Assembly: GCF_001294455.1 (NCBI RefSeq)
Contig: NZ_LIKT01000030.1
Coordinates: forward strand, 1 to 49,245
Source: Phaeobacter sp. 11ANDIMAR09
GTDB lineage: Bacteria > Pseudomonadota > Alphaproteobacteria > Rhodobacterales > Rhodobacteraceae
Length of the DNA stretch: 49,245 nt
Reading direction: 5' to 3'
Made by a program: the position numbers and the translations under genes
The notes under the pieces: model-generated
Told to the model about the DNA's origin: nothing
What the model saw: only the letters and a program-made list of their open reading frames with translations
Databases searched by the model: none
Shown here: positions 508 through 18,397 of the stretch, one piece after another
How the letters are laid out: every line of letters begins with the position of its first letter
Position numbering within the stretch: position 1 is the stretch's first letter

Positions 508-1536
508 CTACTTTTTCACATTGGTCCAGATCTGATCATAGACCGCCTGGGTGGCCTTGTCGCAGACCTCAATAAAGGCACCGGCTCCGGCTGCTGCGGG
601 CGGGTTGGCTTCCGGCAGGCTGGCCAGTTCCGGGTCCAGGAACTCTGCCGTACCGGACAGGCCAGAGGCATAGCGGGCATAGTTGGACACGGCAGCGATG
701 TTTTCTGGCACCAGCAGGAAATCCATGAACTTGAGCGCGTTTTCCCGGTTCGGCGCGTCTTTCAACAACACGACATTGTCCATCCACACCACGTAGCCCT
801 GCGTTGGGAAGGCGTATTGCAGCGTGTCCTTCTCGGCCCGGGCCTTGGCCGCAAAGCCATCGTAGATCATTCCTGCAGCGGCATCGCCCGAGACCAGAAC
901 CTCTTTGGCGGTATCCGAATTGAAAGACGCCCAATGCGCCTTGGCGCCCATCAGCATCGCATTGAGCGCCTTGAGCTGGTCGCGATCGGTCGAACATTGC
1001 GGAATGCCCATATGCAGGGCCGCCATGGCCAGAACTTCGCCCTGGCTGTCCAGCAGGTTGATCTTGCCCGAGAGTTCAGCTGGTGGGTTGAATAGGATGT
1101 CGGTGGTATTGATGTCGCCGTCATAGACCGTTGTGTCGACCGAAAAGGCGGTCGAGCCCCACTGATAGGGGATCGAATGGGCGCGGCCCGGATCAAAGCT
1201 TGGATCGGCCCATTCGGCGGCGATATTGCCTTTGTTGCTCAGCTCACCCTCGGCGATGGTATCCAACAGGCCTTCGCCGGCCATGATGGCAACCATGTAG
1301 TCCCCCGGCACCGACAGATCATAGGTGCCCAGTCCCCCCGCTTTGAGCGAGGCCAGCATGGCTTCGTTTGAATCATAGGTATCCATGGTGACGGTAATGC
1401 CGGTCTCTGCGGTGAATTTATCCAGCAGGGCCTGCGGCATGTATTCAAACCAGTGATACAGAACCAGATTGCCCTCGGCACTGGCCGCATTTGCCATCAA
1501 GGCCAGAGCCATGGCGGATGTTGTCAGAAATTTCAT
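508..1536 (-). CDS. potD: Polyamine-type ABC transporter, periplasmic solute-binding protein
   Basis: This 342-residue protein starts with a Sec signal peptide (residues about 1-20, ending ASA before EGNLVLYHW). The mature part matches the spermidine/putrescine-binding PotD/PotF family: an early HWFEYMP segment (compare NWTEYVP in PotD), VPGDYMVAIM and PYQWGSTA. It would capture the substrate in the periplasm and deliver it to the membrane subunits encoded by the next two genes. It is the last gene of a four-gene minus-strand operon, 21 bases after the potC-like stop. Many Roseobacter proteins of this family are only nominally polyamine binders. Given the adjacent catabolic genes, the ligand may be an N-methylated cation rather than spermidine; that part is inference. 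Confidence 0.88.
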   Translation of the reverse strand: MKFLTTSAMALALMANAASAEGNLVLYHWFEYMPQALLDKFTAETGITVTMDTYDSNEAMLASLKAGGLGTYDLSVPGDYMVAIMAGEGLLDTIAEGELSNKGNIAAEWADPSFDPGRAHSIPYQWGSTAFSVDTTVYDGDINTTDILFNPPAELSGKINLLDSQGEVLAMAALHMGIPQCSTDRDQLKALNAMLMGAKAHWASFNSDTAKEVLVSGDAAAGMIYDGFAAKARAEKDTLQYAFPTQGYVVWMDNVVLLKDAPNRENALKFMDFLLVPENIAAVSNYARYASGLSGTAEFLDPELASLPEANPPAAAGAGAFIEVCDKATQAVYDQIWTNVKK

Positions 1537-1557
1537 AGTATCGTTCCCCTGTTGTGG

Positions 1558-2364
1558 TTATTTTGTGTTGTCCGATTTTGAGACGAAGTAAGAGATCGTC
1601 ACCATCATGATCGACACAGCCAGCAGCATGGTTGAAATCGCCATGATGTTTGGTTTGAGCCCCTGTTTCACCGAACCAAAGATCGCCGTCGGCAGTGTCT
1701 CAACACCGGCGCCTTTGACAAAATTGGTGATGATGAAATCATCAAGACTGACGATGAAGGCCAGCAGAAAACCCGAGACAATGCCCGGCATCATCAGGGG
1801 CAGCAGCACCCGGCGAAAGGCCTGCGTCTTGGTCGCATACAGATCCATTGCCGCCTGTTCATAGGTGTCCTCGATCCCCTGCATCCGCGCCTGAATGGGC
1901 AGATAGGCAAAGGGAATGCAAAAGGCGGTATGGGCCACCAGGATCGTCAGGAAACCGCGGGTAAAGCCGATCGAATTGAAAAAGATCAGCGTCGCCACTG
2001 CGGTGACGATTTCGGGCACCATCAAAGGCAGGCTGATCAGACCCAGCGAGGCAGTGCGCAGCCGGAATTTGCCCCCCCGCACGATGGCGGTGGCAGCTGC
2101 GGTAGCAATGGCAGTCGAAAGAGTTGCCGCCACGATGGCAATAACAAAGGAGTTCAGCGCCGCCTGTTTGAACTTAGCGCTCTCAGGGCCAACAAAGACA
2201 TCGAGATACCAATGAAACGACAGCCCTTCCCAAACCGTGATCGATTTGGACGCGTTAAAGGAATAGAGGGTGACGACAATCAGCGGCGCATAGAGGATCA
2301 CCAGGCACAACAGGGTTATGCCCTTGAACCCAAAAAAGGTTTTTACATCGGTTTTAGCGCTCAT
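1558..2364 (-). CDS. potC: Polyamine-type ABC transporter permease (PotC-like)
   Basis: This is an inner-membrane permease of 268 residues. I chose the ATG at 2364 ([13 protein letters not shown]) over an upstream in-frame start at 2463, because the ATG overlaps the upstream permease stop in an ATGA arrangement and gives the family's normal length. There are about six hydrophobic segments; the first is around residues 15-35. The cytoplasmic EAA loop, which contacts the ATPase, is recognisable as [20 protein letters not shown]. It pairs with the PotB-like permease and the ATPase at 3287-4378 to form the importer. Translational coupling to the upstream gene supports equal stoichiometry. Confidence 0.88.
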
Positions 2365-3287
2365 GACAGATCCTCCGCCTGGCGTTGTTGGCGCGCATAG
2401 ATCAGCAGAATGGTCAGGACCATGGTCAGCAGGATCATCGAAATCGCCGCTCCAAAGGGCCAATTACCAGCGTTGCCTTTGAATTGCTCTTCGATCAGCG
2501 AGCCGATCATGAAGTTCTTGGCACCGCCCAACAGATCGGGCGCAAGGAAGGCGCCGAGGCTGGGCACAAAGACCAGAATGCAGCCCGCGATCACGCCGGG
2601 TTTCACCGCTGGCAGCAGAATGCGCCGCAGGGTCACCCATTTGGTTGCATAGAGATCTGCCGCCGCTTCGCTGAGCGCGAAGTTGTAGCGCTCAACCGAG
2701 GCATAGATCGGCAGCACCATAAAGGGCAGATAGCTGTAAAACAGGCCCAACTGTACCGCCAGATTGGTATTGATGATGTGCAGGGGGGTGTCGATCAGCC
2801 CGATATTGACCAGAAAATCATTTAGCGGCCCCTGATCGCGCAGCAGAAACTTCATCGAGACCGTGCGGATCAACAGATTGACCCAATAGGGAATGGTGAT
2901 CAGAAACACCCAGATAGCGCGATTTTTTTCAGGCCGTGTCGCAATGAAATAGGCTGTCGGAAAACCGATCAGCAGCGACAGGATCGTGGCCGCACCGGCC
3001 TGCCAGATCGAGCGCCAGAAAATTGCGATATAGGTCCAGTCAATCTTGGCGGGTTCATCCCCAAAAAGCCCGCGATCAAAAAAGAACTGATCATAGGCAG
3101 AGAGCGAGAACTCCCAGATGACACCGCCCCGGAATTCTTTGGTCAAAAAGGAATAGACCATCATCATCAAAACTGGTGCCAGGACAAAGATTCCGACCAC
3201 CACCCAGCTGGGCAACAACAGCCAATGCCGGGCTTTGGCATAGGTGTCGGATGCGGCCGAACCGCCGCTTGCTGCGCCCCCCGCCAT
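2361..3287 (-). CDS. potB: Polyamine-type ABC transporter permease (PotB-like)
   Basis: This is the second inner-membrane permease, 308 residues. An alanine/glycine/serine-rich cytoplasmic N-terminus precedes the first transmembrane segment (about residues 25-45). The EAA loop reads [21 protein letters not shown], and a family-typical [14 protein letters not shown] segment follows. Its ATG at 3287 overlaps the TGA of the ATPase gene by one base (TGATG), and its own stop overlaps the next permease start by four bases, so the three genes are translationally coupled. It should form a heterodimeric channel with the PotC-like protein. Confidence 0.88.
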
Positions 3288-4378
3288 CAGTCAACCAACA
3301 GGCGCGCCGCGCCATGCTCCATGTTGACATAGGCCTGAGCGCCCGGTTCAAAGATCCGCTTGGTGCCTCGATCGGAATTCGAGGTCCGAACAGTAAAATT
3401 TGGCCCCTCCGCCAAGTCAATGATGGTGGTGATATCGGTGCCGATAAAGATATTCTCGACGATGGTCCCTTTCAGGCTCTCGCTCTCGGTGGGGTGTTCG
3501 GATAAAAACAGACGTTCGGGGCGGATCGACATATGCACGCGCGCGCCCCGTTTTACCTCATCCACCGCGTTGCAGGTCAGCTCATGGCCACCGCCCAGAT
3601 GGCAGGTGGCGCGGCCTGCCTCGATGGCATCCACCGAAACCTCGAGCAGATTGGTCTCGCCGATGAAATCCGCGACAAACATATTGCGCGGCGCCTCATA
3701 GATGTCCTGGGGCGCACCCAATTGCTGCATCCGCCCAGCCGACATGACGGCAATGCGGTCCGACATGGTCAGGGCTTCTTCCTGATCATGGGTCACAAAA
3801 ATAAAGGTGATCCCGGTTTCGCGCTGGATATGTTTCAGCTCGATCTGCATCGCCTTGCGCAGCTTGAGATCCAGCGCCGAAAGCGGTTCGTCCAGCAGCA
3901 GAACCTTGGGCGAGGGCGCAAGCGCGCGGGCCAGGGCAACACGTTGTTGCTGCCCGCCTGACAGCTGCGCGGGTTTGCGGCTGGCGAACTGGGACAGCTG
4001 CACAAGATCCAGCATTTCTCCGGCGCGGCGGCGCGCTTCGGATTTGGAGGCTCCGCGCATTTCCAACCCAAAGCCCACATTGTCCAGGATCGTCATATGC
4101 GGAAACAGCGCGTAGTTCTGAAACACCGTGTTCACCGGGCGCTGATGCGGCGGCAGGTTCTCGATTTCTTCGCCATAGAGGAAGATGCCCCCTTCCGAGA
4201 CGTCCTCGAACCCGGCAATCATCCGCAACAGCGTGGTCTTGCCACAGCCTGACGGTCCAAGCAGGGTGAAAAACTCATTGTCGCGGATGCTCAAAGAGAT
4301 CTTTTGCAAGGCGGTGAAATCACCGTAGCGTTTAACGGCATCGCGGACGTCGACCGCAATCTGGCTGGCATCTGTCAT
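3287..4378 (-). CDS. potA: Polyamine-type ABC transporter ATP-binding protein (PotA-like)
   Basis: This 363-residue ATPase powers the importer. It has Walker A GPSGCGKTT, the ABC signature LSGGQQQRVALARAL, Walker B VLLLDEPLSALD and the switch histidine in FVTHDQEEAL. A C-terminal TOBE-type domain (about residues 280-363, containing SIRPERLFL) is typical of PotA/MalK proteins. I chose the ATG at 4378 (MTDASQ) because the reading frame further upstream to 4507 encodes no family-like sequence. It is the first gene of the minus-strand operon and diverges from the flavoprotein gene at 4705; the 326-bp gap carries shared control elements. Confidence 0.9.
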   Translation of the reverse strand: MTDASQIAVDVRDAVKRYGDFTALQKISLSIRDNEFFTLLGPSGCGKTTLLRMIAGFEDVSEGGIFLYGEEIENLPPHQRPVNTVFQNYALFPHMTILDNVGFGLEMRGASKSEARRRAGEMLDLVQLSQFASRKPAQLSGGQQQRVALARALAPSPKVLLLDEPLSALDLKLRKAMQIELKHIQRETGITFIFVTHDQEEALTMSDRIAVMSAGRMQQLGAPQDIYEAPRNMFVADFIGETNLLEVSVDAIEAGRATCHLGGGHELTCNAVDEVKRGARVHMSIRPERLFLSEHPTESESLKGTIVENIFIGTDITTIIDLAEGPNFTVRTSNSDRGTKRIFEPGAQAYVNMEHGAARLLVD

Positions 4379-4704
4379 AGCGAAGATCCCATGGTTTGAA
4401 GGAATCCTAGCCTTGGGAAAGAGCTGCTGTCGTGTCCCCCCGAAGGGGGATAGGGATATATGCGCATGGTGACCTCCGAGTCTGCGTTTAAAGAGTACGC
4501 GCGACACATCTTTGTAAAAATTCGTATCTGGCGAATGTTGGATTAGGCTAAGGCTTTGCGATGCCGAAACTGGTTAGCCCCACCCTAATCAACGCTGATG
4601 CATATCGTTCTTTTCTGGTTCTCACCGCGTGTCACACTGCCCAAAGCGGGAGGTGTCGGCAGAAGCGATAGGCGGCTCCCGGTCAGATTGAGAGGACAGA
4701 CATT
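4379..4704. promoter_or_regulatory. Divergent control region with several LysR-type inverted repeats
   Basis: This 326-bp gap holds no gene. It must contain the promoters for the transporter operon (leftward) and the catabolic operon (rightward). Three symmetrical elements sit close together. ATTCG-N7-CGAAT at 4520-4536 is a perfect T-N11-A type LysR box. TTGGATTAGGCTAA at 4538-4551 recurs, inverted and with one mismatch, at 10895-10908. GGTTAG-N7-CTAATC at 4572-4590 also fits T-N11-A spacing. I infer that the LysR protein encoded at 9909-10838 binds here. Confidence 0.55.
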
Positions 4705-5985
4705 ATGGCCGTTGAAAAGGTAGATACGCTTGTTGTGGGGGGTGGTCAGGCGGGCATCGCGCTCAGTGAACACCTGGGAGACCGCGGCGTGCCTCATCTG
4801 GTGCTGGAGAAAAACCGGATTGCCGAAGCCTGGCGGTCACGGCGCTGGGATACTTTGGTGACCAATGGTCCGGTCTGGCATGATCGGTTTCCCAACCTGG
4901 AGTTCCCAAACAGCCAGCCGGATGAATTTGTCGGCAAAGATGCTGTTGCTGACTACCTGGAATCCTATGCAGAAATGGTCCAAGCCCCCATTCGCACCGG
5001 TGTCGAAGTGATCAAGGCCAAACGCCTTGCGGGCCAGGCCGGGTTTCTGGTTGAAACCTCCGAAGGGCAGATCGAAGCCAAACGGCTGGTTGCGGCCACC
5101 GGCGCCTTTCAACAGCCTGTGATCCCGCCGATTGTCCCCGACACTGCCAATCTAACTCAATTGCATTCCTTCCACTACAAGAACCCAAACCAACTGGCTG
5201 AGGGCGCGGTTCTGGTGGTCGGCGCCGGCTCTTCGGGCGCGCAGATCGCGGATGAGCTGCAGCGCGCTGGGCGCAAGGTCTTTTTGTCGGTGGGCCCCCA
5301 TGATCGCCCGCCCCGCCGCTACCGGGGCCGCGATTTTGTCTGGTGGCTTGGGGTTCTGGGCCTTTGGGATATTGCCGCCCAGGCTCCGGGCACCGAGCAT
5401 GTCACCATCTCGGTCAGCGGTGCCTATGGCGGTCGCACCATGGATTTCCGCCGCCTTGCGAGCGAAGGCGTGACCCTGTTGGGCCTGACGGATACATTTG
5501 CCGATGGCAGGCTGAGCTTTCGCGATGATCTGCAAAAGAACATTGCCGGTGGCGACGCAAATTACAAAGAAATGCTGGATGCGGCAGATGCCTATCTCGA
5601 GCGCAACGGGCTGGATCTTCCCGCCGAGCCGGAGGCGCGCAATGTCTGGCCTGACCCCGACTGCCTGACCAACCCTATCACCTCGCTTGATCTGGCGCAG
5701 GAAGGCATCACCACGATCATCTGGGCCACCGGTTTTCGGCAGGATTTCAGCTGGATGGATTTGGATGCCTTTGATGACAAAGGGGCGCCAGTGCATCAGC
5801 GCGGTGTGTCCATCGAGCCCGATGTCTATTTCCTGGGCCTACCCTGGCAATCCCGACGCGGATCCACGTTTTTGTGGGGTGTCTGGCATGATGCGAAACA
5901 CATCGCGGACCAGATTGCCACGCAACGCGCCTATCTCGACTATGATGGCGCCGCCGCCATCGTTGCCTCTGCAGCAGCTGAATGA
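4705..5985 (+). CDS. FAD-dependent monooxygenase-like NAD(P)-binding protein
   Basis: This 426-residue two-dinucleotide-domain flavoprotein resembles the CzcO/flavin-monooxygenase family. The FAD Rossmann motif VVGGGQAGIALS is at residues about 10-21, and a second GxGxxG (VVGAGSSGAQIADEL, about residues 171-185) would bind NADPH. A late IIWATGF motif, usual in this family, is also present. It is probably a soluble enzyme oxygenating a nitrogen or carbon atom, or reducing a partner. It opens a rightward operon and is followed after 20 bases by the Rieske oxygenase gene. No dedicated Rieske reductase is visible nearby, so an accessory electron-transfer role is conceivable but unproven. The substrate is unknown. 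Confidence 0.8.
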   Translation: MAVEKVDTLVVGGGQAGIALSEHLGDRGVPHLVLEKNRIAEAWRSRRWDTLVTNGPVWHDRFPNLEFPNSQPDEFVGKDAVADYLESYAEMVQAPIRTGVEVIKAKRLAGQAGFLVETSEGQIEAKRLVAATGAFQQPVIPPIVPDTANLTQLHSFHYKNPNQLAEGAVLVVGAGSSGAQIADELQRAGRKVFLSVGPHDRPPRRYRGRDFVWWLGVLGLWDIAAQAPGTEHVTISVSGAYGGRTMDFRRLASEGVTLLGLTDTFADGRLSFRDDLQKNIAGGDANYKEMLDAADAYLERNGLDLPAEPEARNVWPDPDCLTNPITSLDLAQEGITTIIWATGFRQDFSWMDLDAFDDKGAPVHQRGVSIEPDVYFLGLPWQSRRGSTFLWGVWHDAKHIADQIATQRAYLDYDGAAAIVASAAAE

Positions 5986-6005
5986 CCCGACAAGAGAGAG
6001 AACCC

Positions 6006-7148
6006 ATGGCCAAAGATCATCTGGACCCCGTCGACGCATTGCGCCAGAACACTGCCCAGCCCTTTGAGCGGGCGCAGGCCATGCCCCCATCGGTCTATAC
6101 CTCCGAAGCCTTTCTGGCGCAGGAGCTGGAACATATTTTCTCCAAGGATTGGTTCTGTGTTGGCCGCGCTGATGCCCTGGCAAATCCTGGGGACTACACC
6201 ACCTGCGAACTGGCTGGTCAGCCCATCGCAGTGATCCGGGATCGCGATGGCAATCTGCGGGCCCTGTCCAATGTGTGCCTGCACCGTATGTCCACCCTAC
6301 TAGAAGGCAGCGGCAACACCCGGGCCATTGTCTGCCCCTATCACGCCTGGACCTATAATCTGGACGGTTCCCTGCGCGGCGCCCCGGCGATGACCCTGAA
6401 CGAGGGGTTTTGCAAGGATCAGTACAAACTGCCCCAGGTCAAATGCCAGGAGTGGCTGGGCTGGGTCTTTGTCACGCTAAACATGGATGCCCCTGATGTG
6501 GCAGAACAGCTCAAGCAGGTCGAAGAAATGGTCTCCGGCTATGGCATGACCAACTACACCGAGACCTTCTTTGAAGAGCATGTCTGGGACACAAATTGGA
6601 AAGTCCTGGCCGAGAATTTTATGGAGAGCTACCACCTGCCGGTCTGCCATGCCGGCACGATTGGCGGCTTGTCAAAGCTGGAAGATATGATCTGCCCGCC
6701 GGGCCTGCCTGCCTTCAACTATCACACCATCCTCAAGGAGGAGTCGCTGCGCATCGCCATGGCGCATCCCGACAATGACCGCTTAACCGGAGAAGAGCGC
6801 CGCACCACCTATCTGCTGGCGATCTATCCCAGCCTGTTGATCACGCTAACCCCCGGCTATTTCTGGTATCTTTCGCTGCACCCAAAGGGGCCCGGCCAGG
6901 TCCACATTCGCTTTGGCGGTGGCATGTCCAATGATTTTGCCAATGACCCCGATATCGAGCAGAATTTTTCCGATCTGAAGGCCCTGTTGGATGAGGTCAA
7001 CATTGAGGACCGGGGCTGCACCGAAAAGGTATTCGTAGGCCTCAGCTCGGAGCGCGCCGTTGCTGGTCACCTGAGCCATCTGGAGCGGCCAAACTATGAT
7101 TTTGCGCAATATCTCATGGCCAAAATCGAAGCCGGGCAAGCGGGTTGA
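6006..7148 (+). CDS. Rieske non-heme iron oxygenase, alpha subunit (quaternary-amine type)
   Basis: This is the 380-residue oxygenase component of an aromatic-ring-hydroxylating or N-demethylating system. The Rieske [2Fe-2S] ligands are Cys91, His93, Cys110 and His113 (NVCLHR and VCPYHAW). The mononuclear iron site has His210 and His215 in MESYHLPVCH. A glutamate (Glu207) sits at the bridging position, E-x2-H-x4-H, as I recall for carnitine/betaine-type enzymes such as CntA, where most ring hydroxylases have aspartate. I chose ATG 6006, preceded by gagagag, over an in-frame ATG at 5982 that overlaps the upstream gene. The substrate is probably an N-methylated cation or heterocycle (inference). 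No ferredoxin or reductase gene is adjacent. Confidence 0.88.
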   Translation: MAKDHLDPVDALRQNTAQPFERAQAMPPSVYTSEAFLAQELEHIFSKDWFCVGRADALANPGDYTTCELAGQPIAVIRDRDGNLRALSNVCLHRMSTLLEGSGNTRAIVCPYHAWTYNLDGSLRGAPAMTLNEGFCKDQYKLPQVKCQEWLGWVFVTLNMDAPDVAEQLKQVEEMVSGYGMTNYTETFFEEHVWDTNWKVLAENFMESYHLPVCHAGTIGGLSKLEDMICPPGLPAFNYHTILKEESLRIAMAHPDNDRLTGEERRTTYLLAIYPSLLITLTPGYFWYLSLHPKGPGQVHIRFGGGMSNDFANDPDIEQNFSDLKALLDEVNIEDRGCTEKVFVGLSSERAVAGHLSHLERPNYDFAQYLMAKIEAGQAG

Positions 7149-7184
7149 CCCCCGCCCGGCCAGACCACAGCGACAGGAACCAAA

Positions 7185-7601
7185 ATGGCACATACACGCA
7201 TTCGCAAATTCAACACCTCGGATACCTATCCCGAGCAGAACCTCGACAATGATCTCTGTCAGGCCGTCGTCACCCAGGGTGGTAAAACCGTCTGGCTGCG
7301 GGGACAATGCCCGCAAAACCTGGATGACGCGGTCAATATCGACAGTCATGACCCGGTAGAGCAAACCCATAAGGTGATGCAGAACATCAAGCAGCTGATC
7401 GAAGAGGCCGGCGGCGAGATGAAACATCTGGTCAAGGTGGTGGTCTATATCACCGATGTGCGTCACCGCGAGGATGTCTACCGCACCATGGGCGAATACA
7501 TCAAAGGGGTGCATCCGGTGTCGACGGGCCTGGTTGTCCAGGCCCTGGCGCGCCCAGATTGGCTGGTCGAAATCGACGGCACTGCAGTCATTCCCGACTG
7601 A
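7185..7601 (+). CDS. RidA-family enamine/imine deaminase
   Basis: This 138-residue protein is of normal length for the YjgF/RidA family. The C-terminal ARPDWLVEIDGTAVI block carries the conserved arginine and glutamate of active RidA proteins, and VKVVVYITDVRHREDV is also family-typical. RidA proteins are small cytosolic trimers that hydrolyse reactive enamine/imine intermediates to ketones plus ammonia or amine. Position inside a catabolic operon, between an oxygenase and a hydrolase, suggests a specific pathway step after ring or side-chain oxidation rather than general damage control; this is inference. Confidence 0.9.
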   Translation: MAHTRIRKFNTSDTYPEQNLDNDLCQAVVTQGGKTVWLRGQCPQNLDDAVNIDSHDPVEQTHKVMQNIKQLIEEAGGEMKHLVKVVVYITDVRHREDVYRTMGEYIKGVHPVSTGLVVQALARPDWLVEIDGTAVIPD

Positions 7602-7620
7602 GGTCGTAAATGGCAAGGAT

Positions 7621-7680
7621 GAGGGGGCTCTCTGCCCCCTCACACTCCCCCGAGGATATTTGTGGCCAAATGAAGATTGG
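7621..7680. repeat. Hairpin plus CCCCGAGGATATTT intergenic element
   Basis: An 8-bp stem (GAGGGGGC 7621-7628, loop TCTCT, GCCCCCTC 7634-7641) is followed by CCCCCGAGGATATTT and GGCCAAATGAAGA. From memory, this arrangement recurs between genes of many Rhodobacteraceae. I see only this copy in the window. It lies between the RidA and DUF1028 genes and could modulate read-through. Confidence 0.45.
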
Positions 7681-7692
7681 AAGGAAGAAGGG

Positions 7693-8367
7693 ATGACATT
7701 TTCCTTGGTGGCGCGCTGCGCTGAGACGGGCATGTTTGGAGTGGCGATTTCTTCGTCCTCACCGGCAGTGGCAGCGCGCTGCTCCTATGCGCGCGCAGGC
7801 GTCGGGGCTGTGGCATCTCAGAACATCACTGACCCCAGCCTGGGGCCGCTGACCCTGGATCTGATGCAGGGCGGAATGGCGGCGGATGAAGCCATCGCCG
7901 AGATCCGCAGGCGGGGGGAATTTGTCGACTACCGCCAGGTTCTCGCTGTTGACGCAAGCGGCACCACCGCCATTCACTCCGGCCCCAATAGCCTAGGTAT
8001 ATGGAGCCAGGCGCAGGGGATGAATGTGGCTTCTGGCGGTAATCTCTTGGCCAATGAGGGTATTCCGCAGGCCATTGTAGATGGATTTATGTCCAGCTCG
8101 GGCCATCTGGGGGACCGGTTGATCGCAGCCATGCGCGCAGGGCTGGCAGCGGGTGGCGAAGCAGGGCCGGTGCATTCGGCGGGTATGATGTTGGTTGATC
8201 AGGTCGCCTGGCCGGTGGCGGATCTGCGCTGCGACTGGACCGAAGATTGCCCGATTGAAAACATCGCAACCGCCTGGAATGTCTATAAACCACAGCTCGA
8301 CGCCTATGTTCAGCGTGCATTGGATCCGCGCGAAGCGCCCTCCTATGGCGTTCCAGGCGACGAATAA
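7693..8367 (+). CDS. DUF1028 family protein (Ntn-hydrolase-like)
   Basis: This 224-residue protein starts at ATG 7693 after a strong ribosome-binding stretch (aaggaagaaggg). The N-terminus MTFSLVARCAETGMFGVAIS and the following SSSPAVAARCSYARAGVGAV are typical of DUF1028, a family predicted to have an Ntn-hydrolase fold but without an assigned general reaction. Cysteine, serine and threonine residues near the N-terminus could serve as nucleophile, but no self-processing site can be identified by eye. It is the fourth gene of the catabolic operon, directly before the aldehyde dehydrogenase, so amide or lactam hydrolysis of a pathway intermediate is a reasonable guess. Confidence 0.82.
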   Translation: MTFSLVARCAETGMFGVAISSSSPAVAARCSYARAGVGAVASQNITDPSLGPLTLDLMQGGMAADEAIAEIRRRGEFVDYRQVLAVDASGTTAIHSGPNSLGIWSQAQGMNVASGGNLLANEGIPQAIVDGFMSSSGHLGDRLIAAMRAGLAAGGEAGPVHSAGMMLVDQVAWPVADLRCDWTEDCPIENIATAWNVYKPQLDAYVQRALDPREAPSYGVPGDE

Positions 8368-8381
8368 ACAGGAAGATCATC

Positions 8382-9878
8382 ATGTTGGACTATAGCCACG
8401 CAGATTGGAAATCGCGGGCCAAAGCGCTGCAGTTTCACAGTCAGGCCTTTATCGGCGGCAAGTTTGTCGATGCCCTATCAGGCCGCACCTTTGACAGCAT
8501 CAACCCCGCCACTGGCGAGACCTTGAGCGCCGTTGCCGAATGTGATGCCGCTGACGTGGATCTGGCTGTTGTTGCGGCCCGTCGCGCTTACGACTCCGGA
8601 TCCTGGTCACGCATGGCACCCGGCGATCGTAAGGTGGTCTTGCTGAAACTGGCCGATTTGATCCGGGCGAACCTCGCAGAGATGGCGCTGCTCGACAGTC
8701 TTGATATGGGCAAGCTGGTCACGGACGCGGCGACAATCGACGCCCCCGGTGCCGCGCATTTCTTTCAATGGCATGCCGAGGCCATAGATAAGCTTTACGA
8801 CGAGGTCGCCCCCACTGGCCCCGGCGATCTCGCGCTGGTGTCACGGGTGCCGCTAGGGGTTGTCGGGGCCGTGACGCCCTGGAACTTTCCGCTTGATATG
8901 GCGACCTGGAAATCAGCTGCAGCCCTTGCCGCAGGCAACTCTGTCGTACTGAAACCTGCCGAGCAATCCCCGCTGTCTGCGCTGCGTCTGGCCGAGCTGG
9001 CGGCAGAGGCGGGCATTCCCGAAGGCGTCTTCAACGTGATCCCCGGCTTTGGACATACTGCCGGGCAAGCCCTGGGCCGCCATATGGATGTGGATTGCCT
9101 TGCCTTTACCGGCTCCACTCAGATCGGCAAGAAATTCATGGAATACTCCGGCCAGTCCAACCTGAAACAGGTCTGGCCCGAGACCGGTGGCAAAAGCCCC
9201 AATCTGATCTTTGCCGATTGCGAAGATCTGGAGACCGCCGCCGACATGGCCGCCTTTGGTATCTTCTTTAATCAGGGCGAAGTCTGTTCGGCCAATTCCC
9301 GGCTCTATGTCGAACGCTCGATCAAAGGCGCCTTTGTTGAAAAAATGATCGCCCGCGCCGAAGCTACCCAACCGGGAGATCCCCTGGATCCGGCGTCCAA
9401 AATGGGGGCCATTGTCGATGCCAGGCAGACAGAGGGCATCATGGCCGCGGTTGAAGCTGGCAAAGAGACCGCCAGGCTCGTCACCGGAGGAGCGCGCGCC
9501 TTTGTCGATGGCAAGGGCTGCTTTGTACAGCCGACGATCTTTGATGATGTGGATCACAACGACCCCTTGGCGCGGGAGGAGATCTTTGGCCCGGTGCTCT
9601 CGATCATCCCCTTTGACAGCGAAGAACAGGCGATCAATATGGCCAATGACAGCATCTACGGATTGGCGGCCTCAGTCTGGACGGATAATCTGAGCCGCGC
9701 CCTGCGGGTGTCGGATCAACTGGTCGCCGGGACTGTTTCGGTCAATACGGTTGATGCGCTCTCAGCCCAGACCCCGTTTGGCGGGATGAAGCAGTCAGGC
9801 TTTGGCCGTGATCTGTCACTGCACAGTTTTGACAAATACACTGCGCTGAAAACAACCTGGATCAAGTACAAGGCTTGA
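8382..9878 (+). CDS. NAD(P)-dependent aldehyde dehydrogenase (PuuC/betaine-aldehyde type)
   Basis: This 498-residue protein is full length for the ALDH superfamily. The general-base glutamate lies in PETGGKSPN and the catalytic cysteine in GEVCSANSR. VTPWNFPLD and EEIFGPVLSI are standard ALDH segments. The sequence resembles gamma-glutamyl-gamma-aminobutyraldehyde dehydrogenases, which act on amino-aldehydes. It starts 15 bases after the DUF1028 stop with an AGGA ribosome-binding site, so it belongs to the same operon. In this pathway it would oxidise a semialdehyde to an acid, for example toward a glutamate-like product; the actual substrate is not evident. Confidence 0.9.
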   Translation: MLDYSHADWKSRAKALQFHSQAFIGGKFVDALSGRTFDSINPATGETLSAVAECDAADVDLAVVAARRAYDSGSWSRMAPGDRKVVLLKLADLIRANLAEMALLDSLDMGKLVTDAATIDAPGAAHFFQWHAEAIDKLYDEVAPTGPGDLALVSRVPLGVVGAVTPWNFPLDMATWKSAAALAAGNSVVLKPAEQSPLSALRLAELAAEAGIPEGVFNVIPGFGHTAGQALGRHMDVDCLAFTGSTQIGKKFMEYSGQSNLKQVWPETGGKSPNLIFADCEDLETAADMAAFGIFFNQGEVCSANSRLYVERSIKGAFVEKMIARAEATQPGDPLDPASKMGAIVDARQTEGIMAAVEAGKETARLVTGGARAFVDGKGCFVQPTIFDDVDHNDPLAREEIFGPVLSIIPFDSEEQAINMANDSIYGLAASVWTDNLSRALRVSDQLVAGTVSVNTVDALSAQTPFGGMKQSGFGRDLSLHSFDKYTALKTTWIKYKA

Positions 9879-9908
9879 ACCGGGTCACTCACAGGGCATA
9901 ATGACACT

Positions 9909-10838
9909 ATGGCATTGCGGTTCACTCTTCGGCAGTTGGAATATTTTGTCGCCGTTGGCGAGGCCGGCTCGATTGCGCAGGCCAGCGAAAGGGTGAATGT
10001 CTCTTCACCCTCTATTTCGGCGGCGATCTCTCAGCTTGAGGACGAGTTTGGCCTGCCGCTGTTTGTCCGCAAACATGCACATGGGCTCAGCCTGACACAG
10101 GCTGGGCGGCAATTCATGTCACAGGCCAATCAGGTGCTAAGCGAGGCCGAAGCTCTGAACCGCCTCGCCGGTGATATCTCTGGCAACGTTCAGGGGCCAC
10201 TGAATATCGGCTGCCTGCTGAGTTTCGCCCAGGTTCTGCTGCCCGCGATCCGCCGCCAATTCGAGCTGAAGTATCCAGATACCCGCGTCAGCCAGGTGGA
10301 AACCGATCAGTCCCGCATCATTGAACTGCTGCGCCGTGCCGAAATCGACGTTGCCTTGTCCTATGATCTGGAGATCCCGCCGGATCTGGAATTTGTGCCG
10401 CTGCGCAGTCTGCCCCCCTATGCCATGGTGCCCGAAGGCCATCCCTTGGCGCGGCAAAATGAGGTCGGTGTCGAAGAGCTGCTCGACTATCCGATGGTGC
10501 TGTTGGATCTGCCGCTCAGCAGTGACTATTTCCTTAGCTTCTTTGATGCCACGGGGCGCAAGCCACGTGTTGTGGAGCGCACCCGTGACATGGCCGTCAT
10601 GCGGTCTTTGGTGGCCAATGGCTTTGGCTATGCCATCGCCAATATCCGCCCCTATTCCGATCTCTCCCCGGATGGGCGACGGTTGGTGTTCATTCCGATC
10701 AAAGGGGAGCAACGGCCGATGCAACTGGGGCTTATCATTCCAGAGGGTGCGCGCAACGTATTGACTGTAAATGCCTTTATAGATCATGCCAGCGAAGTCA
10801 TTCAGAATTGGAACTATCCGGGGCAGATAATTAGCTAA
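9909..10838 (+). CDS. LysR-family transcriptional regulator of the catabolic island
   Basis: This 309-residue regulator has an N-terminal winged helix-turn-helix (FTLRQLEYFVAVGEAGSIAQ and onward, about residues 5-65) and a C-terminal periplasmic-binding-protein-like effector domain (about 90-300). It is co-directional with the catabolic genes, lying between the ALDH gene (30 bases upstream) and the TMADH-like gene (122 bases downstream). A ribosome-binding site is not obvious. I infer that it senses the pathway substrate or an intermediate and controls the promoters at 4379-4704 and 10839-10959, which share TTGGATTAGSCTAA and T-N11-A inverted repeats. Confidence 0.88.
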   Translation: MALRFTLRQLEYFVAVGEAGSIAQASERVNVSSPSISAAISQLEDEFGLPLFVRKHAHGLSLTQAGRQFMSQANQVLSEAEALNRLAGDISGNVQGPLNIGCLLSFAQVLLPAIRRQFELKYPDTRVSQVETDQSRIIELLRRAEIDVALSYDLEIPPDLEFVPLRSLPPYAMVPEGHPLARQNEVGVEELLDYPMVLLDLPLSSDYFLSFFDATGRKPRVVERTRDMAVMRSLVANGFGYAIANIRPYSDLSPDGRRLVFIPIKGEQRPMQLGLIIPEGARNVLTVNAFIDHASEVIQNWNYPGQIIS

Positions 10839-10855
10839 ACCTGGCAGGCCCATCG

Positions 10856-10908
10856 CTTAAGCTTTGCCTAAGCCACGCTTTCGCAACCTTGTCTTTAGGC
10901 TAATCCAA
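10856..10908. promoter_or_regulatory. Putative LysR operators before the TMADH-like gene
   Basis: CTTA-N9-TAAG at 10856-10872 is an inverted repeat with T-N11-A spacing. TTAGGCTAATCCAA at 10895-10908 is the reverse complement, with one mismatch, of the element at 4538-4551. The region directly precedes the GTG start at 10960 and follows the LysR gene, which fits positive control by that regulator. Confidence 0.5.
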
Positions 10909-10959
10909 TCTTCTGTCACCTTCGTCTGAAACTGTGATCCCGACAGGAGCAAGAGAGAC

Positions 10960-13029
10960 GTGCGCGACCAACGGTATGATGTCCTATTTGACCCAATGAA
11001 AATTGGCCCGGTGACGGCCAAGAACCGCTTTTACCAGGTGCCACATTGCAATGGTGGCGGGTATCGTGACCCCTCTGCGGCAGCCGAAATGCGCCGTTCC
11101 AAAGCGGAGGGCGGCTGGGGGGTGATCTTTACCGAACAATGCGAAATGCATCACACCTCGGAAATCACCCCCTTCATCGAGCTGCGCCTCTGGGAAGACA
11201 AGGACATCCCGATGCTGCGCAGGATGTCAGACCGGATGAAGGAACATGGTGCTCTGGCGGGTATCCAGCTGGCCTACTCGGGCGTCAATGGTCCGAACCT
11301 CTATTCCAAAGAGGTGCCCCTGGCCGTTTCGGCGCAGCCAATCCGCACCTTTACCAATGATCCGGTTCAGGCTCGCGCCTTGGACAAAAGCGATATCCGC
11401 GATCTGCGCCGCTGGTTTGTCAATGCCGCGCTGCGTTCCAAAGAAGCCGGCTTTGACCTGATCTGTCTGTATGGGGCGCATGGGTTTGGCATTTTCCAAC
11501 ATTTCCTGAGTCGCGCCACCAATCACCGCAGCGATGAATATGGCGGCAGTCTGGAAAACCGGTCGCGCTTTGTGAATGAGGTGATCTCGGACATCAAAGA
11601 TGCTGTGGGCGACACAATGGGCATTACCCTGCGGGTGTCATTGGATGAAACCATTGGCGATCTTGGGTTTTCCAATGCCGAGGTGCGCGATTTTGTCGAA
11701 ATGAACCGCAATCTACCGGATCTTTGGGATTTGGCTCAGGGCACCTGGGAAGATTGTTCCGGCCCCTCCCGCTTTAAGGAAGAGGCGGCGCAAGAGGCGC
11801 TGGTCAGGGGTATCCATGAGCTGACAGACAAACCGATTGTTGGCGTTGGACGTTTCACCAGCCCGGATGTGATGGCCAAGATGGTGCGCAATGGCACGCT
11901 TGATTTCATTGGCTGCGCCCGCCCGTCCATTGCGGACCCTTTCCTGCCCAAAAAGGTCGAAGAGGGCCGGATCGAAGACATTCGTGAATGTATCGGCTGC
12001 AATATCTGCATCACTGGCGATATGACCATGTCGATCAGCCGCTGCACCCAGAACCCCACTTTTATGGAGGAATGGCGCAAGGGCTGGCATCCCGAGCGGA
12101 TGAACACCAAAGGTGACAGCTCTAGCGTGCTGGTGCTTGGCGCCGGCCCTGCAGGACTGGAAGCCACCCGGGCCCTGGCCGAGCGGGGCTACGACGTGGC
12201 CTTGGCCGAAGCGGGCAGAGCCATTGGCGGCCGCGTTGCACGGGAACGCCTGTTGCCCGGCCTGTCGGCTTGGGGACGGGTCGTGGATTACCGCGACTAT
12301 CAGATCAGCCAGAAGCCCAATGTAGAGACATATTTTGACAGTGCCCTGGACGCCGACAGCATCCTGGAGTTCGGCTTTGAAAACGTCTGTATCGCCACTG
12401 GCGCCAAATGGCGCCGCGATGGGGTGGCCCGCCAGCATGTGGTGCCCTTTCCAACGGATGATCATATGTCGCTGTTTACACCGGATGACCTGATGGATGG
12501 CGCAAGCCCCACGGGGCATGTCGTGATCTATGACGATGATCACTACTATATGGGCGGTGTCATGGCTGAACTGTTGGTGCAAAAGGGCTGCACAGTCACG
12601 CTGGTAACTCCCGCAGCCTATGTCAGCGAATGGACCCTCAACACGCTGGAACAGCATGAAATTCATCGCCGCCTGGCACGTTTGGGCGTAATGATTGAAC
12701 TCAACCGTGGCGTTTCCGGCATTGGCAAAGACCATGTAATCACCAATTGCATGTTCACCGATCAAAGCCGCCCCATACAATGTGACGCTGTGCTCTTGGT
12801 GTCTTCCCGCCAGGAGAACAACGGCGTTTACGCTGATCTGGTGGCCCGGCAGGAGGAATGGGCCGATGCCGGGATCAAATCGGTGAAGCTGATCGGAGAT
12901 GCCAATGCACCGGGCCCGATTGCCTGGGCCACCTATGCCGGGCACCGCTATGCGCGGGAACTGGACGCAGAGGACATTGGCGATGCCCTGCCGTTTCGCC
13001 GCGAAATCACTGAGCTGGCTGCCGAATAA
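10960..13029 (+). CDS. Trimethylamine dehydrogenase-type iron-sulfur flavoprotein
   Basis: This 689-residue protein is a close relative of trimethylamine/dimethylamine dehydrogenase. It has an N-terminal FMN TIM barrel (about 1-340), a [4Fe-4S] site (Cys344, Cys347, Cys350, Cys362) and C-terminal nucleotide-binding domains starting at VLVLGAGPAGLEA. Cys30, in RFYQVPHCNGGG, lines up in both motif and number with the TMADH cysteine that carries covalent 6-S-cysteinyl-FMN. The TMADH substrate-bowl tyrosine near residue 60 appears to be glutamine here (FTEQCEM), which argues for a different amine. I used the GTG at 10960 with AGGAG 10 bases upstream. It probably demethylates a secondary or tertiary amine, passing electrons to ETF or a quinone-linked carrier. 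Confidence 0.88.
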   Translation: MRDQRYDVLFDPMKIGPVTAKNRFYQVPHCNGGGYRDPSAAAEMRRSKAEGGWGVIFTEQCEMHHTSEITPFIELRLWEDKDIPMLRRMSDRMKEHGALAGIQLAYSGVNGPNLYSKEVPLAVSAQPIRTFTNDPVQARALDKSDIRDLRRWFVNAALRSKEAGFDLICLYGAHGFGIFQHFLSRATNHRSDEYGGSLENRSRFVNEVISDIKDAVGDTMGITLRVSLDETIGDLGFSNAEVRDFVEMNRNLPDLWDLAQGTWEDCSGPSRFKEEAAQEALVRGIHELTDKPIVGVGRFTSPDVMAKMVRNGTLDFIGCARPSIADPFLPKKVEEGRIEDIRECIGCNICITGDMTMSISRCTQNPTFMEEWRKGWHPERMNTKGDSSSVLVLGAGPAGLEATRALAERGYDVALAEAGRAIGGRVARERLLPGLSAWGRVVDYRDYQISQKPNVETYFDSALDADSILEFGFENVCIATGAKWRRDGVARQHVVPFPTDDHMSLFTPDDLMDGASPTGHVVIYDDDHYYMGGVMAELLVQKGCTVTLVTPAAYVSEWTLNTLEQHEIHRRLARLGVMIELNRGVSGIGKDHVITNCMFTDQSRPIQCDAVLLVSSRQENNGVYADLVARQEEWADAGIKSVKLIGDANAPGPIAWATYAGHRYARELDAEDIGDALPFRREITELAAE

Positions 13030-13038
13030 GGAGCCTTT

Positions 13039-14178
13039 ATGACTCGCACCCTAGAGATATTGGATCGGTTGATCGCCTTTCCCACGATCAGCGCTGACAG
13101 CAATTTGGCGCTGATCGACTATGTACAGGGTCTGTTGCAGGCCGCCGGGGCCGAGACGGTCCGTCTTTTGTCGCCCTGTGGCCAGAAGGCGGGACTCTTT
13201 GCGCGGATAGGCGCGGGCAGCGGTGGGGTCTGCCTGTCTGCCCATACCGATGTCGTGCCCGTGGCGGGCCAGAAGTGGAGCACGGCCCCCTTCAAGCTCA
13301 CCGCGCGTGGCGATCGGCTATTGGGGCGCGGCACCACGGATATGAAGGGATTTCTGGCCTCGGCTCTGGCCTGTGTCGAACGGGCTGCACAGCTGCAATT
13401 GGCCGAACCTTTGACCCTGGTGATTTCCTATGACGAAGAGATCGGCTGCGTCGGCATTCGTCAGATGATGCCTCAGCTGGAACCGCTCTTGGGAGATCCA
13501 CGCGCCGTGATTGTGGGTGAGCCGACCTCGATGCAGGTCGCCATCGGACACAAGGGCAAGGTGGCTTTGCGCGTCACCTGCCAGGGGGAATCCGGGCATA
13601 GCGCTCTGGCACCAGAGTTTCGCAATGCCATCCACCTGGCTGCAGACTTTGTCACCGCGATGCGCGAACTGCAGGATGATCTGGCACAGGGCGCCTGTGA
13701 CAGCGCCTATAGCATTCCCTATTCCACGATCCATATTGGCAAAATTGCAGGGGGAACAGCGCTGAACATTGTTCCAGATCTGGCGCAGATCGACATGGAG
13801 TTTCGCCATTTGGGACAGGTCGACCCTGCGGCGTTACGCTCCCTGATCGAAACCAAAGCCCGCCAGATCAGCCAAAGGTACAACGCCCCCAATGCAATTC
13901 AGGTGGCCGAGGTGAACGCTTATTTCGGGCTGGGCACTTTGCCTGAAGCGCCAGTGGTCACTTGGGCGCAACAGTTAACCGGCGGCACAGCAATAACCAA
14001 AGTTGCCTTTGGAACCGAGGCTGGTTTTTTTGCCAATCTCGGCCTGCCCGTTGTTGTGATCGGCCCCGGCGACATGGCCGCAGATGGGCATCAGCCGGAT
14101 GAGGGGCTCAACCAGGCAGAGCTTTTCCGCTGCGATGCCTTTATGGACCGGCTGCTTTTGGACCTGAAAGCTCCCTGA
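13039..14178 (+). CDS. M20-family amidohydrolase (ArgE/DapE-type deacylase)
   Basis: This 379-residue zinc peptidase-family protein matches ArgE-type acetylornithine deacetylases in length. The first metal histidine lies in SAHTDVVPV, the bridging aspartate in GRGTTDMKG, the catalytic glutamate pair in DEEIGCVG, and later ligands in GEPTSMQVAIGHKGK and the C-terminal ADGHQPDE. It follows the TMADH-like gene by nine bases and is surely co-transcribed. Automatic annotation would call it argE. Its place in a catabolic operon suggests instead removal of an N-formyl or N-acyl group from a pathway intermediate, such as an N-acyl amino acid formed by ring opening (inference). Confidence 0.85.
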   Translation: MTRTLEILDRLIAFPTISADSNLALIDYVQGLLQAAGAETVRLLSPCGQKAGLFARIGAGSGGVCLSAHTDVVPVAGQKWSTAPFKLTARGDRLLGRGTTDMKGFLASALACVERAAQLQLAEPLTLVISYDEEIGCVGIRQMMPQLEPLLGDPRAVIVGEPTSMQVAIGHKGKVALRVTCQGESGHSALAPEFRNAIHLAADFVTAMRELQDDLAQGACDSAYSIPYSTIHIGKIAGGTALNIVPDLAQIDMEFRHLGQVDPAALRSLIETKARQISQRYNAPNAIQVAEVNAYFGLGTLPEAPVVTWAQQLTGGTAITKVAFGTEAGFFANLGLPVVVIGPGDMAADGHQPDEGLNQAELFRCDAFMDRLLLDLKAP

Positions 14179-15663: not shown

Positions 15664-16587
15664 TTAGCTTCCATCTCTTGGGGTTGTATTGGCCACATGT
15701 GCCCGCCCCAAATGATCGATCAGAAAATCCATGAACACGCGGACCTTGGCTGAAACGACATTGCTTTTGGGGTAGATCAGCCAAAGGGCGGGTTTGTTTG
15801 CCAACTCATACTCTGGCAACACCGGCGTCAGCGTTCCCTCGGCAATCTCCTTTTGCACCGCCCAGAGCGAGTTGATCGAAATGCCGGCTCCGTTGAGCGT
15901 CGTTAGTTTTTGGGTCAGCCCATCGTTCAGGATCAGACAATGGGCAGCGGTCTTGGGGTCGAACATCGCCTGCGTCCCGTCGCGAGAGATCAGCGCCTTT
16001 GGGTCGGTATCCTTGAATGAAATCAACCGATGTTTCGCCAGATCTTTTGGAACAGCCGGAGTGCCATACCGTTCTAAATAGGCGGGCGCGGCGCAAAGGA
16101 TCCGGGTATCATCTGCCAGCTTGCGTGCGGTGAGGCTGCTGTCGGCCAGAACCGCGTTGCGCAGCGCCAAGTCAAAACTGCCCTCGATTAGATCAAACTG
16201 CGAATCCGACAGATGCAGGTCAAGCCGAAGGTCAGGGTATTTGTCCATAAAGATCGGCAACAGCGGCGCTATGTAGAGCTGAGCAAAGGTGCTGGGCGCC
16301 GCAAAGCGCAGGGTCCCGCTGACCTTTGTCTGGCCCTTACCCAAGGCAGCAAGGGCCGCCTCTTCCTGGGCGATCATCTCGCGCGCATAGGGCAGAAAAT
16401 CTTGGCCCTCTAGGGACAGCGACACCTTGCGGGTTGAACGATGTAGCAAGTCCGCGCCGACAAGTCGCTCCAGTTTTGCGATACGCGTGCTGGCAACCGC
16501 AGGGGCCATGCCCAGCGTACGACCTGCAGCGCTGATGTTCAGCGTCTCGCAGGCAAGAACAAAAAGGCGCAGGGTTTGAGTGTCCAT
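15664..16587 (-). CDS. LysR-family regulator, divergent from the CmcJ-type oxygenase
   Basis: This is a 307-residue LysR protein of the CrgA/DmlR-like type, with the winged helix in the first 60 residues (MDTQTLRLFVLACETLNISA and onward) and an effector domain from about residue 90. It diverges from the oxygenase gene at 16686 across 98 bp. This is the classical arrangement in which the regulator represses itself and activates the neighbour. It is the obvious candidate controller of the 16.7-21.5 kb cluster. Confidence 0.9.
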   Translation of the reverse strand: MDTQTLRLFVLACETLNISAAGRTLGMAPAVASTRIAKLERLVGADLLHRSTRKVSLSLEGQDFLPYAREMIAQEEAALAALGKGQTKVSGTLRFAAPSTFAQLYIAPLLPIFMDKYPDLRLDLHLSDSQFDLIEGSFDLALRNAVLADSSLTARKLADDTRILCAAPAYLERYGTPAVPKDLAKHRLISFKDTDPKALISRDGTQAMFDPKTAAHCLILNDGLTQKLTTLNGAGISINSLWAVQKEIAEGTLTPVLPEYELANKPALWLIYPKSNVVSAKVRVFMDFLIDHLGRAHVANTTPRDGS

Positions 16588-16685
16588 ATCATATACTTTT
16601 TCGGAACAGTGAAATCAAATATAACTTCTTTATATAGCATGTGAAAGTGATAAATCTGTTTGCGAGACGTGCACAGGAGCAGCCA
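16588..16685. promoter_or_regulatory. AT-rich divergent promoter region
   Basis: These 98 bp between two divergent starts are clearly AT-rich compared with the surrounding genes (for example aaatataacttctttatata). They end with an AGGAG ribosome-binding site for the plus-strand gene. I could not define a single operator by eye. Confidence 0.4.
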
Positions 16686-17471
16686 ATGACCCAGATCGCG
16701 ACCGTAAACTATCATGTCCACAAACAAGAACGGCAATCCTTTGAGCTGGATGCTGGCGGGATCATCGGCAACCTTGTTTCACCCGAGCTCGCACCAAAGC
16801 AGATGGCGGTGCGGGATGTGCGCAGCTTTGATGCGGGTCTATCGTTTCAGGAGCATTCTGTTGGCTTCGCAACTCTCCCAACCAATGTGCAGTGCTTTGA
16901 CGCTGGAAGTGATTGGCAAGACACCTACGAAAAGGAACTCTCCAAACTGCTGAGGACTGAAACTGGAGCGCAGGAGATCCTAATTTTTGACCATACAGTC
17001 CGCGCCGATGATCCTGATGCGGATCGCAAACCGGCGCGCAATGTTCATAGCGATTACAGCGCAGATGGGGCCAACAAACGACTGATCGACATTCTGGGCG
17101 AAGGCAAAGCCGCCGAATGGTCAAAAGGGCACTATGCCTTTATCAACTTCTGGCGCCCTGTCAGCGCGGCAATCAACTCGGCTCCGCTGGGGTTTATCCG
17201 CCCGTCCAGTGTCGCCGATAACGATTGGATCCTGCTTGATCTGATCTATCCGGATCGCAGGGGCCAGATCATGGGGGTTGCAGCAAACCCTGACCATGAT
17301 TGGTTCTATATGTCCAATATGACACCTGATGAGGTGGCATTCTTCAATATCTTTGACAATCGCGGCCAGCCTTCAGTGGCCCACAGTGCCTTGGGCATGG
17401 TTGAGGACCCAAAGATCCAGACCGTCCGGCGCAGCATTGAGAGCCGAACTTTGGTTCGTTACGCGGCCTAA
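16686..17471 (+). CDS. CmcJ/NvfI-family non-heme iron oxygenase
   Basis: This 261-residue protein belongs to the family of CmcJ (cephamycin 7-methoxylase partner), NvfI and AsaB-type fungal enzymes. Putative iron ligands are His121 and Asp123 (RNVHSDYS) and His233 (VAHSALG). The C-terminal RRSIESRTLVRY carries the conserved arginines. INFWRPVSAAI and the DEVAFFNIFDN segment are also family-typical. ATG 16686 follows ACAGGAG; an upstream in-frame ATG at 16641 lacks one. Related enzymes catalyse hydroxylation, desaturation or endoperoxidation, mostly in fungi. Here it heads a cluster with SDR, crotonase-fold, 2OG-oxygenase and reductase genes. The product is unknown. Confidence 0.8.
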   Translation: MTQIATVNYHVHKQERQSFELDAGGIIGNLVSPELAPKQMAVRDVRSFDAGLSFQEHSVGFATLPTNVQCFDAGSDWQDTYEKELSKLLRTETGAQEILIFDHTVRADDPDADRKPARNVHSDYSADGANKRLIDILGEGKAAEWSKGHYAFINFWRPVSAAINSAPLGFIRPSSVADNDWILLDLIYPDRRGQIMGVAANPDHDWFYMSNMTPDEVAFFNIFDNRGQPSVAHSALGMVEDPKIQTVRRSIESRTLVRYAA

Positions 17472-17507
17472 CTCCCAAACAGGGATCAACAAGAGAAAGA
17501 TCATGCA

Positions 17508-18296: not shown

Positions 18297-18305
18297 ACAG
18301 CTTCG

Positions 18306-18327
18306 GCCCGGCTGAAACCGGGCTTTT
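18306..18327 (+). terminator. Short intrinsic terminator or attenuator
   Basis: GCCCGG (18306-18311), a six-base loop and CCGGGC (18318-18323) are followed by TTTT. It sits between the SDR and crotonase genes of an apparent operon, so it may only partly stop transcription. Confidence 0.55.
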
Positions 18328-18397
18328 GCCCCGCTCCCCCATCAAAACCAAAGCAATCCGCCAGATAATTCTGCGCGGCCCCAAGAAAGGCAACCTC

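Follow-up and report, generated by a model that had tools for sequence, protein, structure and literature searches.

What does a bacterium break down with an amine dehydrogenase, a flavin monooxygenase (FMO) and a Rieske oxygenase that are encoded next to a polyamine-type importer? We addressed this question for an entire contig of Phaeobacter sp. 11ANDIMAR09 (NZ_LIKT01000030.1, assembly GCF_001294455.1), whose full 49,245 nucleotides are referred to here as the window. The catabolic block lies at 4379-14178 and a divergent transporter at 508-4378. A first-pass annotation, made from the letters alone, had described a complete-looking island for an N-methylated heterocycle of the homarine or trigonelline type, or for a betaine. 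The general outline of that proposal was upheld, in that the island looks like a complete set for N-heterocycle catabolism, bringing its own importer along with an oxygenase and enzymes for aldehyde oxidation and amide cleavage. The substrate, judged from sequence comparison, is very probably histamine: the island resembles a histamine catabolism cluster with a core of the hin type, and homology predicts the identities of histamine dehydrogenase (HADH), HinF, HinL, HinH and HinG.

The protein encoded at 10960-13029 matched the Rhizobium histamine dehydrogenase 6DE6 with 1258.6 bits over 686 amino acids, the Nocardioides simplex enzyme 3K30 with 822 bits and trimethylamine dehydrogenase (TMADH) with 523 bits (phmmer). 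In the alignment with TMADH, the Tyr60 of that enzyme faces Gln60 of the window protein, while its Trp355 is an inserted residue without a window counterpart, adjoining Asp354; Tyr60 and Trp355 are residues of the TMADH substrate bowl. The earlier description as TMADH-like was thus correct at the level of the family, but the specific relationship is to HADH, and a role as N-methyl demethylase was rejected on account of this closest match, the far lower TMADH score and the substrate-site residues, which are those of a histamine dehydrogenase. The active-site and tunnel residues of the Rhizobium enzyme are catalogued in the part of PMC10180351 that we drew on. Of these, the window protein carries C30, Q60, I69, F72, E74, N110, F131, Y171, H174, F176, R225, W263, D265 and D354, including every residue of an active-site test set (Q60, F72, E74, Y171, H174, R225, W263 and D265; Rsp numbering). 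When 12 sites were tallied in 41 rows at no less than 62% identity and in 8 rows of more distant paralogues, sites 60, 69, 74, 110, 171, 174, 176, 225, 263 and 354 were invariant in 41/41 rows and site 72 was F in 40; among the paralogues, sites 60, 69, 72, 74, 110, 176, 263 and 265 varied. Full-length relatives at 66% identity or more were present in 52 of 390 genomes of the order, the window's own included, and below this tier the best full-length identity fell to 56%, two partial matches aside. Relatives at 77-78% identity occur on Rhizobium gallicum and Shinella plasmids. The near full-length match and the listed residues are shared with 6DE6 and 3K30. The cited part of PMC10180351 treats the Rhizobium HADH as a lone enzyme, whereas the window HADH stands together with a downstream pathway.

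This downstream pathway has its counterpart in pseudomonads. In P. putida, HinF is listed as an FAD-monooxygenase (EC 1.14.13.5), HinL as an enamine deaminase, HinH as an amidase, HinG as an amidase (EC 3.5.1.8) and HinD as an aldehyde dehydrogenase (PMC6467879, Table 3). For P. aeruginosa, the sections of PMC8231116 used here give PA5393-PA5390 as hinF, hinL, hinH and hinG, histamine being converted to aspartate in six steps, and describe HinK, a LysR regulator, as responding to imidazole-4-acetate and not to histamine. An alignment scan with the window FMO yielded 585 confirmed places, of which the best 80 were used. Among these 80, P. aeruginosa PA7 (L209) encodes an FMO, a RidA, a DUF1028 and an M20 protein consecutively; identities to the window proteins are 69% over 415, 55% over 130, 54% over 224 and 42% over 372 amino acids, respectively, and the window keeps the PA7 order apart from inserted genes. 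The best named FMO matches within the same 80 come from uncultured Pelagimonas, Ruegeria, Sulfitobacter and other roseobacters, and hin-type clusters with HADH are found outside the window's family in Mesorhizobium. Some Pseudomonas and Paraburkholderia carry relatives of the window's aldehyde dehydrogenase (ALDH) at 63-66% identity within their hin loci; the window's LysR protein shows only 26-36% identity to those of Pseudomonas hin loci. The island is like the hin pathway of P. putida U and P. aeruginosa in its HinF, HinL, HinH and HinG orthologues, their order, an ALDH, a LysR regulator and the predicted imidazoleacetate and N-formylaspartate intermediates. It differs in that HADH replaces the HinC aminotransferase as the histamine-deaminating enzyme, a Pot-type ABC transporter takes the place of the HinA permease (no HinA-type permease was found among the block's 12 genes), and the whole set stands in a single island, plus a Rieske oxygenase. 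What is new here is this other entry enzyme, other importer and accessory oxygenase around a known core. The genes and the regulatory element are the following:

508-1536, minus strand: PotD-type substrate-binding protein (Pfam SBP_bac_8; the PotD model ranks top but far under its cut-off)
1558-2364, minus strand: PotC-type permease (family model matches; start chosen among alternatives)
2361-3287, minus strand: PotB-type permease (family model matches)
3287-4378, minus strand: PotA-type ATPase (TIGR01187 potA subfamily above cut-off; start chosen among alternatives)
4574-4588, plus strand: TTAG-N7-CTAA box, putative LysR-type operator in the divergent promoter region
4705-5985, plus strand: HinF orthologue, FAD monooxygenase, predicted imidazoleacetate monooxygenase (EC 1.14.13.5; 69% to the PA7 gene)
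5982-7148, plus strand: Rieske oxygenase (Pfam Rieske and Ring_hydroxyl_A)
7185-7601, plus strand: HinL orthologue, RidA-type imine/enamine deaminase (55% to the PA7 gene)
7693-8367, plus strand: HinH orthologue, DUF1028 protein, predicted amidase (54% to the PA7 gene)
8382-9878, plus strand: ALDH, predicted imidazoleacetaldehyde dehydrogenase in the HinD role (PF00171)
9909-10838, plus strand: LysR-type regulator, predicted HinK role (Pfam HTH_1 and LysR_substrate; recurring position in sister loci)
10960-13029, plus strand: histamine dehydrogenase, FMN/4Fe-4S-type amine dehydrogenase (1258.6 bits to 6de6)
13039-14178, plus strand: HinG orthologue, M20 deacylase, predicted N-formylaspartate deformylase (EC 3.5.1.8; 42% to the PA7 gene)

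The eight plus-strand genes at 4705-14178 are separated by small gaps and diverge from the PotDCBA-type genes at 508-4378; all gene families named in the first-pass annotation were recovered in this arrangement by family models. The FMO stop and the Rieske start share the ATGA at 5982-5985, although translation of the Rieske gene may also begin further in, at 6006. The DUF1028 start was corrected from 7456 in the mechanical list of open reading frames (ORFs) to 7693, because the longer version would overlap RidA, and this gene is the sole DUF1028 match in its genome. The M20 protein scores above cut-off with the ArgE-type NCBIfam models PRK07522 and TIGR01892, and the solved chains closest to the PotD-type protein bear the names spermidine/putrescine-binding. 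A scan of the window with Rfam at gathering scores gave no match. Many genomes of the window's family, and Mesorhizobium as well, have sister clusters with much of the gene set, so the layout is not a product of chance. On the plasmid records examined such genes carry generic names (FAD-dependent oxidoreductase, RidA family, DUF1028, argE, SRPBCC family).

Three sets of loci were used, selected by HinF (the best 80 of 585 described above), by the Rieske protein and by HADH, respectively. Gene maps were drawn with simple ORF callers and blast thresholds, and contig ends truncate some clusters; since the relatives come mainly from one family, the counts are not phylogenetically independent. One locus, L172, duplicates the contig stretch of L050 and was kept in the locus tallies but removed from the tree and box counts. 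In the 35 loci chosen by HADH at 66% identity or above, the fetched stretch contained HinF in 28 cases, RidA in 29, DUF1028 in 27 and LysR and PotA in 26 each; 19 of these stretches had M20, 17 a gene of the ALDH family and four the Rieske gene. By comparison, HinF, RidA and DUF1028 were each found in 0/5 loci chosen by paralogues at 56% or lower, and an ALDH-family gene in one. A sister cluster, L126, holds a gene for a pyridoxal phosphate (PLP)-dependent decarboxylase between HADH and M20 (11689-13023); it was considered as a histidine decarboxylase, but matches no such model.

Taken together, the following route is proposed. Histamine, a small cationic amine, would be imported by the Pot-type ABC transporter and oxidatively deaminated by HADH to imidazoleacetaldehyde, which the ALDH would convert to imidazole-4-acetate. 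HinF would then oxygenate the imidazole ring, ring opening and loss of the imino nitrogen would fall to DUF1028 (HinH) and RidA (HinL), and the M20 enzyme (HinG) would split N-formylaspartate into aspartate and formate. The LysR regulator, acting at TTAG-N7-CTAA, would control both the importer and the hin operon; like HinK, it would probably sense imidazoleacetate. We infer that histamine is the transported compound, how ring opening and deformylation are shared among the enzymes, which regulator acts at the operator and what induces it. An N-formyl intermediate, which had been anticipated before, is thus probable in the form of N-formylaspartate; the N-methylglutamate end product suggested along with it was not sustained, because a gene order of the hinFLHG type indicates a route by way of imidazoleacetate to aspartate.

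The putative operator was recognised in ten aligned potA-hinF intergenic regions, which share a conserved TTAG-N7-CTAA palindrome. In the window, the pattern TTAGN6CCTAA has its single match at 4574-4588, against a shuffle mean of 0.04. Exact boxes were counted within 350 bases upstream of each gene, with expectations from single-base shuffles and with one box counting for both members of a divergent pair where applicable. Such a box preceded 60 of 127 HinF genes, 33 of 70 HADH genes, 28 of 41 PotA genes, 12 of 53 Rieske genes and 6 of 128 RidA genes, while shuffles gave 0.40 or less for each gene class. All 12 boxed Rieske genes belong to the 34 that lack a recognised same-strand gene just upstream (0.04 expected); the other 22 of these have no exact box, four of them holding one with a single mismatch. 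Since HinF diverges from the same gap in six of the 12, the box may serve HinF in these cases. The boxed Rieske genes without HinF in the gap are those of L064, L065, L076, L082, L084 and L144, and in L064 and L065 the fetched stretch contains neither HinF nor RidA.

A number of observations weigh against a histamine pathway as drawn here. Residue 265, whose aspartate belongs to the catalytic triad proposed for the Rhizobium HADH (PMC10180351, in the part used), is D in only 30 of the 41 HADH rows, and the 8 paralogue rows retain D354 too, along with Y171, H174 and R225. According to the same part of that paper, the Rsp enzyme oxidises agmatine at 10% and 1,3-diaminopropane at 13% of the histamine rate, and the Pot-type transporter could carry another amine. 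HinF is missing from the fetched stretch in 7 of the 35 HADH-selected loci, and of the 52 hin loci with HADH but no Rieske gene, 19 lack an ALDH-family gene and 11 lack M20. The PA7 four-gene run was equated with hinFLHG by family, order and place, the record giving no such label. The box was not found upstream of Pseudomonas HinF genes, nor of those of Burkholderiales, and therefore belongs to the alphaproteobacterial version of the cluster. Lastly, histamine alone does not explain the Rieske gene, the only member of the island not required for breaking it down.

The nearest solved chain of the Rieske protein is the carnitine monooxygenase CntA, with 137 bits over residues 5-218 only (phmmer), and the solved relatives include one chain named demethylase, 4qup. 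Its NFMESYH motif aligns with NYMECYH of CntA, so that the glutamate reported earlier does occupy the CntA position, which is that of the bridging residue. The window protein is thus like the CntA/betaine-type oxygenases in its Rieske and catalytic domains and in this glutamate, but differs in the N-terminal extent of the match, in its link to imidazole catabolism and in its surroundings, as no dedicated reductase gene was found among the 12 genes at 508-14178, the remaining window being scanned in part. Elsewhere, a flavin-reductase-like gene adjoins the Rieske gene in L085, and in L058 a single ORF next to it (8265-9440) combines a flavin reductase domain with a LysR ligand-binding domain (Pfam); an ORF of L059 (10587-11768) clusters with the latter.

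Across 292 genomes of the order, counted as Rieske-positive at a match of 58% identity or more and leaving out three with best matches of 41-43%, HinF was present in 53 of the 60 that have the Rieske gene and in 23 of the 232 that do not. The Rieske gene lies between HinF and RidA in the window, as it does in many sister clusters, and in Caballeronia and Paraburkholderia it accompanies a Pot-type transporter divergent from hinFLH(G). Strict dependence is made less likely by the seven Rieske-positive genomes without HinF and by 13 of 54 Rieske loci with neither HinF nor RidA in the fetched stretch; conversely, the Rieske gene is absent from 31 of the 35 HADH-selected loci. We conclude that the Rieske enzyme is an extra, tied to the hin pathway by co-occurrence and partly by the shared operator, and possibly a member of the same regulon.

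As to its function, the Rieske enzyme might serve the same core as an alternative ring oxygenase or deaminase instead of being an N-demethylase, an option that we consider possible while leaning against it. An ALDH-family gene was found in just one of 27 Rieske-positive, HADH-negative hin loci (26 lacking it), versus 33 of 52 with HADH but no Rieske gene and 4 of 14 with both, one of these 14 being a duplicate. Because Rieske clusters without HADH so rarely hold an ALDH-family gene, the Rieske route probably does not pass through an aldehyde, which speaks for this option. In addition, six of the 27 have RidA and DUF1028 but no HinF in the fetched stretch, although some of these six genomes have HinF elsewhere, and a cluster in genome G626 pairs an HpaB gene with a Rieske gene of 40% identity. 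The company of HinF in 53 of 60 genomes and the solved relatives, carnitine monooxygenase and the demethylase-named chain, speak against this alternative. The idea that Rieske clusters have their own kind of RidA and DUF1028 was rejected, since loci with Rieske and HinF mix among HADH loci in a RidA/DUF1028 tree of 129 loci, leaving no separate specificity visible. On this tree the label FMO|RO needs 11 changes and FMO|OYE 22; L283 and L085 stand apart, with a long-branch warning from the tool.

The enzyme may instead act on an N-methylated compound, and our guess is that it most likely turns an N-methylated imidazole into a substrate of the hin enzymes. The fuller version, in which the enzyme acts by N-demethylation and, together with a second Rieske protein of 366 residues present in many sister clusters, brings N-methylated imidazoles into the histamine regulon, we put forward as a doubtful proposal. 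Equally low confidence attaches to the candidate substrates, which are tele-methylhistamine, tele-methylimidazoleacetate and marine dimethylimidazolium betaines such as zooanemonin. The first two are products of animal histamine breakdown, and we know of no bacterial route for these two or for zooanemonin. Among the literature titles listed, with subscription papers mostly outside this scope, none concerned bacterial breakdown of zooanemonin or methylimidazoleacetate, and none connected a Rieske enzyme or the roseobacters with HADH or hin genes. More distant Rieske genes occur in other settings. In L086 and L298-L301 a relative at 41-42% identity follows a sarcosine-oxidase-alpha-family gene and its associated genes, and an M24 peptidase gene marks the opposite end (families checked on L300 only), and a Parasedimentitalea marina plasmid (L240, 9001-18091) carries two adjoining Rieske genes followed by TetR, two FAD oxidoreductases, a GcvT-like protein and an aminotransferase.

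For the island as a whole, the homarine (N-methylpicolinate) reading would have the Rieske enzyme and the FMO open the pyridinium ring and RidA, DUF1028 and M20 finish the route to N-methylglutamate. We regard it as very improbable, as the window encodes HADH and HinF, for neither of which homarine breakdown has an evident need. In its favour, the N-methylglutamate dehydrogenase Mgd is cited as taking part in homarine catabolism in the portion of PMC13390433 used. The G626 cluster (L283, 7937-14010) also lends it support, consisting of HpaB, RidA, the 40% Rieske gene, DUF1028 and M20 with a divergent LysR (five genes and a regulator), and thereby indicating that a Rieske/RidA/DUF1028/M20 module can exist without nearby HinF or HADH. 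This cluster shares RidA, DUF1028, M20, Rieske and LysR with the window, but its stretch has no HADH, ALDH or HinF, and its RidA and DUF1028 group with the L085 pair on a deep branch that excludes the window proteins, subject to the same warning. It may be a candidate homarine operon and a better place to look for one than the window. The homarine operon is reportedly called homABCDER and is said to occur in SAR116. It is not mentioned in the consulted parts of PMC12817926 and PMC9723723. A broad biogenic-amine cluster, with an agmatine- or diamine-like main substrate and imidazole chemistry secondary, is hardly credible either, for although the Pot-type importer, the known HADH side activities (PMC10180351, same part) and the unassigned decarboxylase of L126 would suit it, the hinFLHG orthologues make sense for an imidazole ring and most HADH substrate-site residues are invariant.

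Two further regions of the window lie outside the island. At 15664-20305, a LysR gene diverges from genes for a CmcJ/NvfI-family oxygenase, an SDR, an enoyl-CoA hydratase-like protein and a weak 2-oxoglutarate-oxygenase-like protein. At the contig end (42870-49205), an MTTB-family methyltransferase gene is followed by those for an OYE-type flavoprotein, an F420-type oxidoreductase and a second OYE-type flavoprotein, which looks like a separate methylamine or betaine locus.

With histamine as the very probable substrate, the island and its many sisters in Rhodobacterales and Mesorhizobium would move from an uncharacterised catabolic cluster to a testable histamine pathway. The DUF1028 family would thereby gain a concrete role that is open to testing, and one Rieske oxygenase is singled out, with a short list of candidate substrates that includes animal and marine histamine derivatives.

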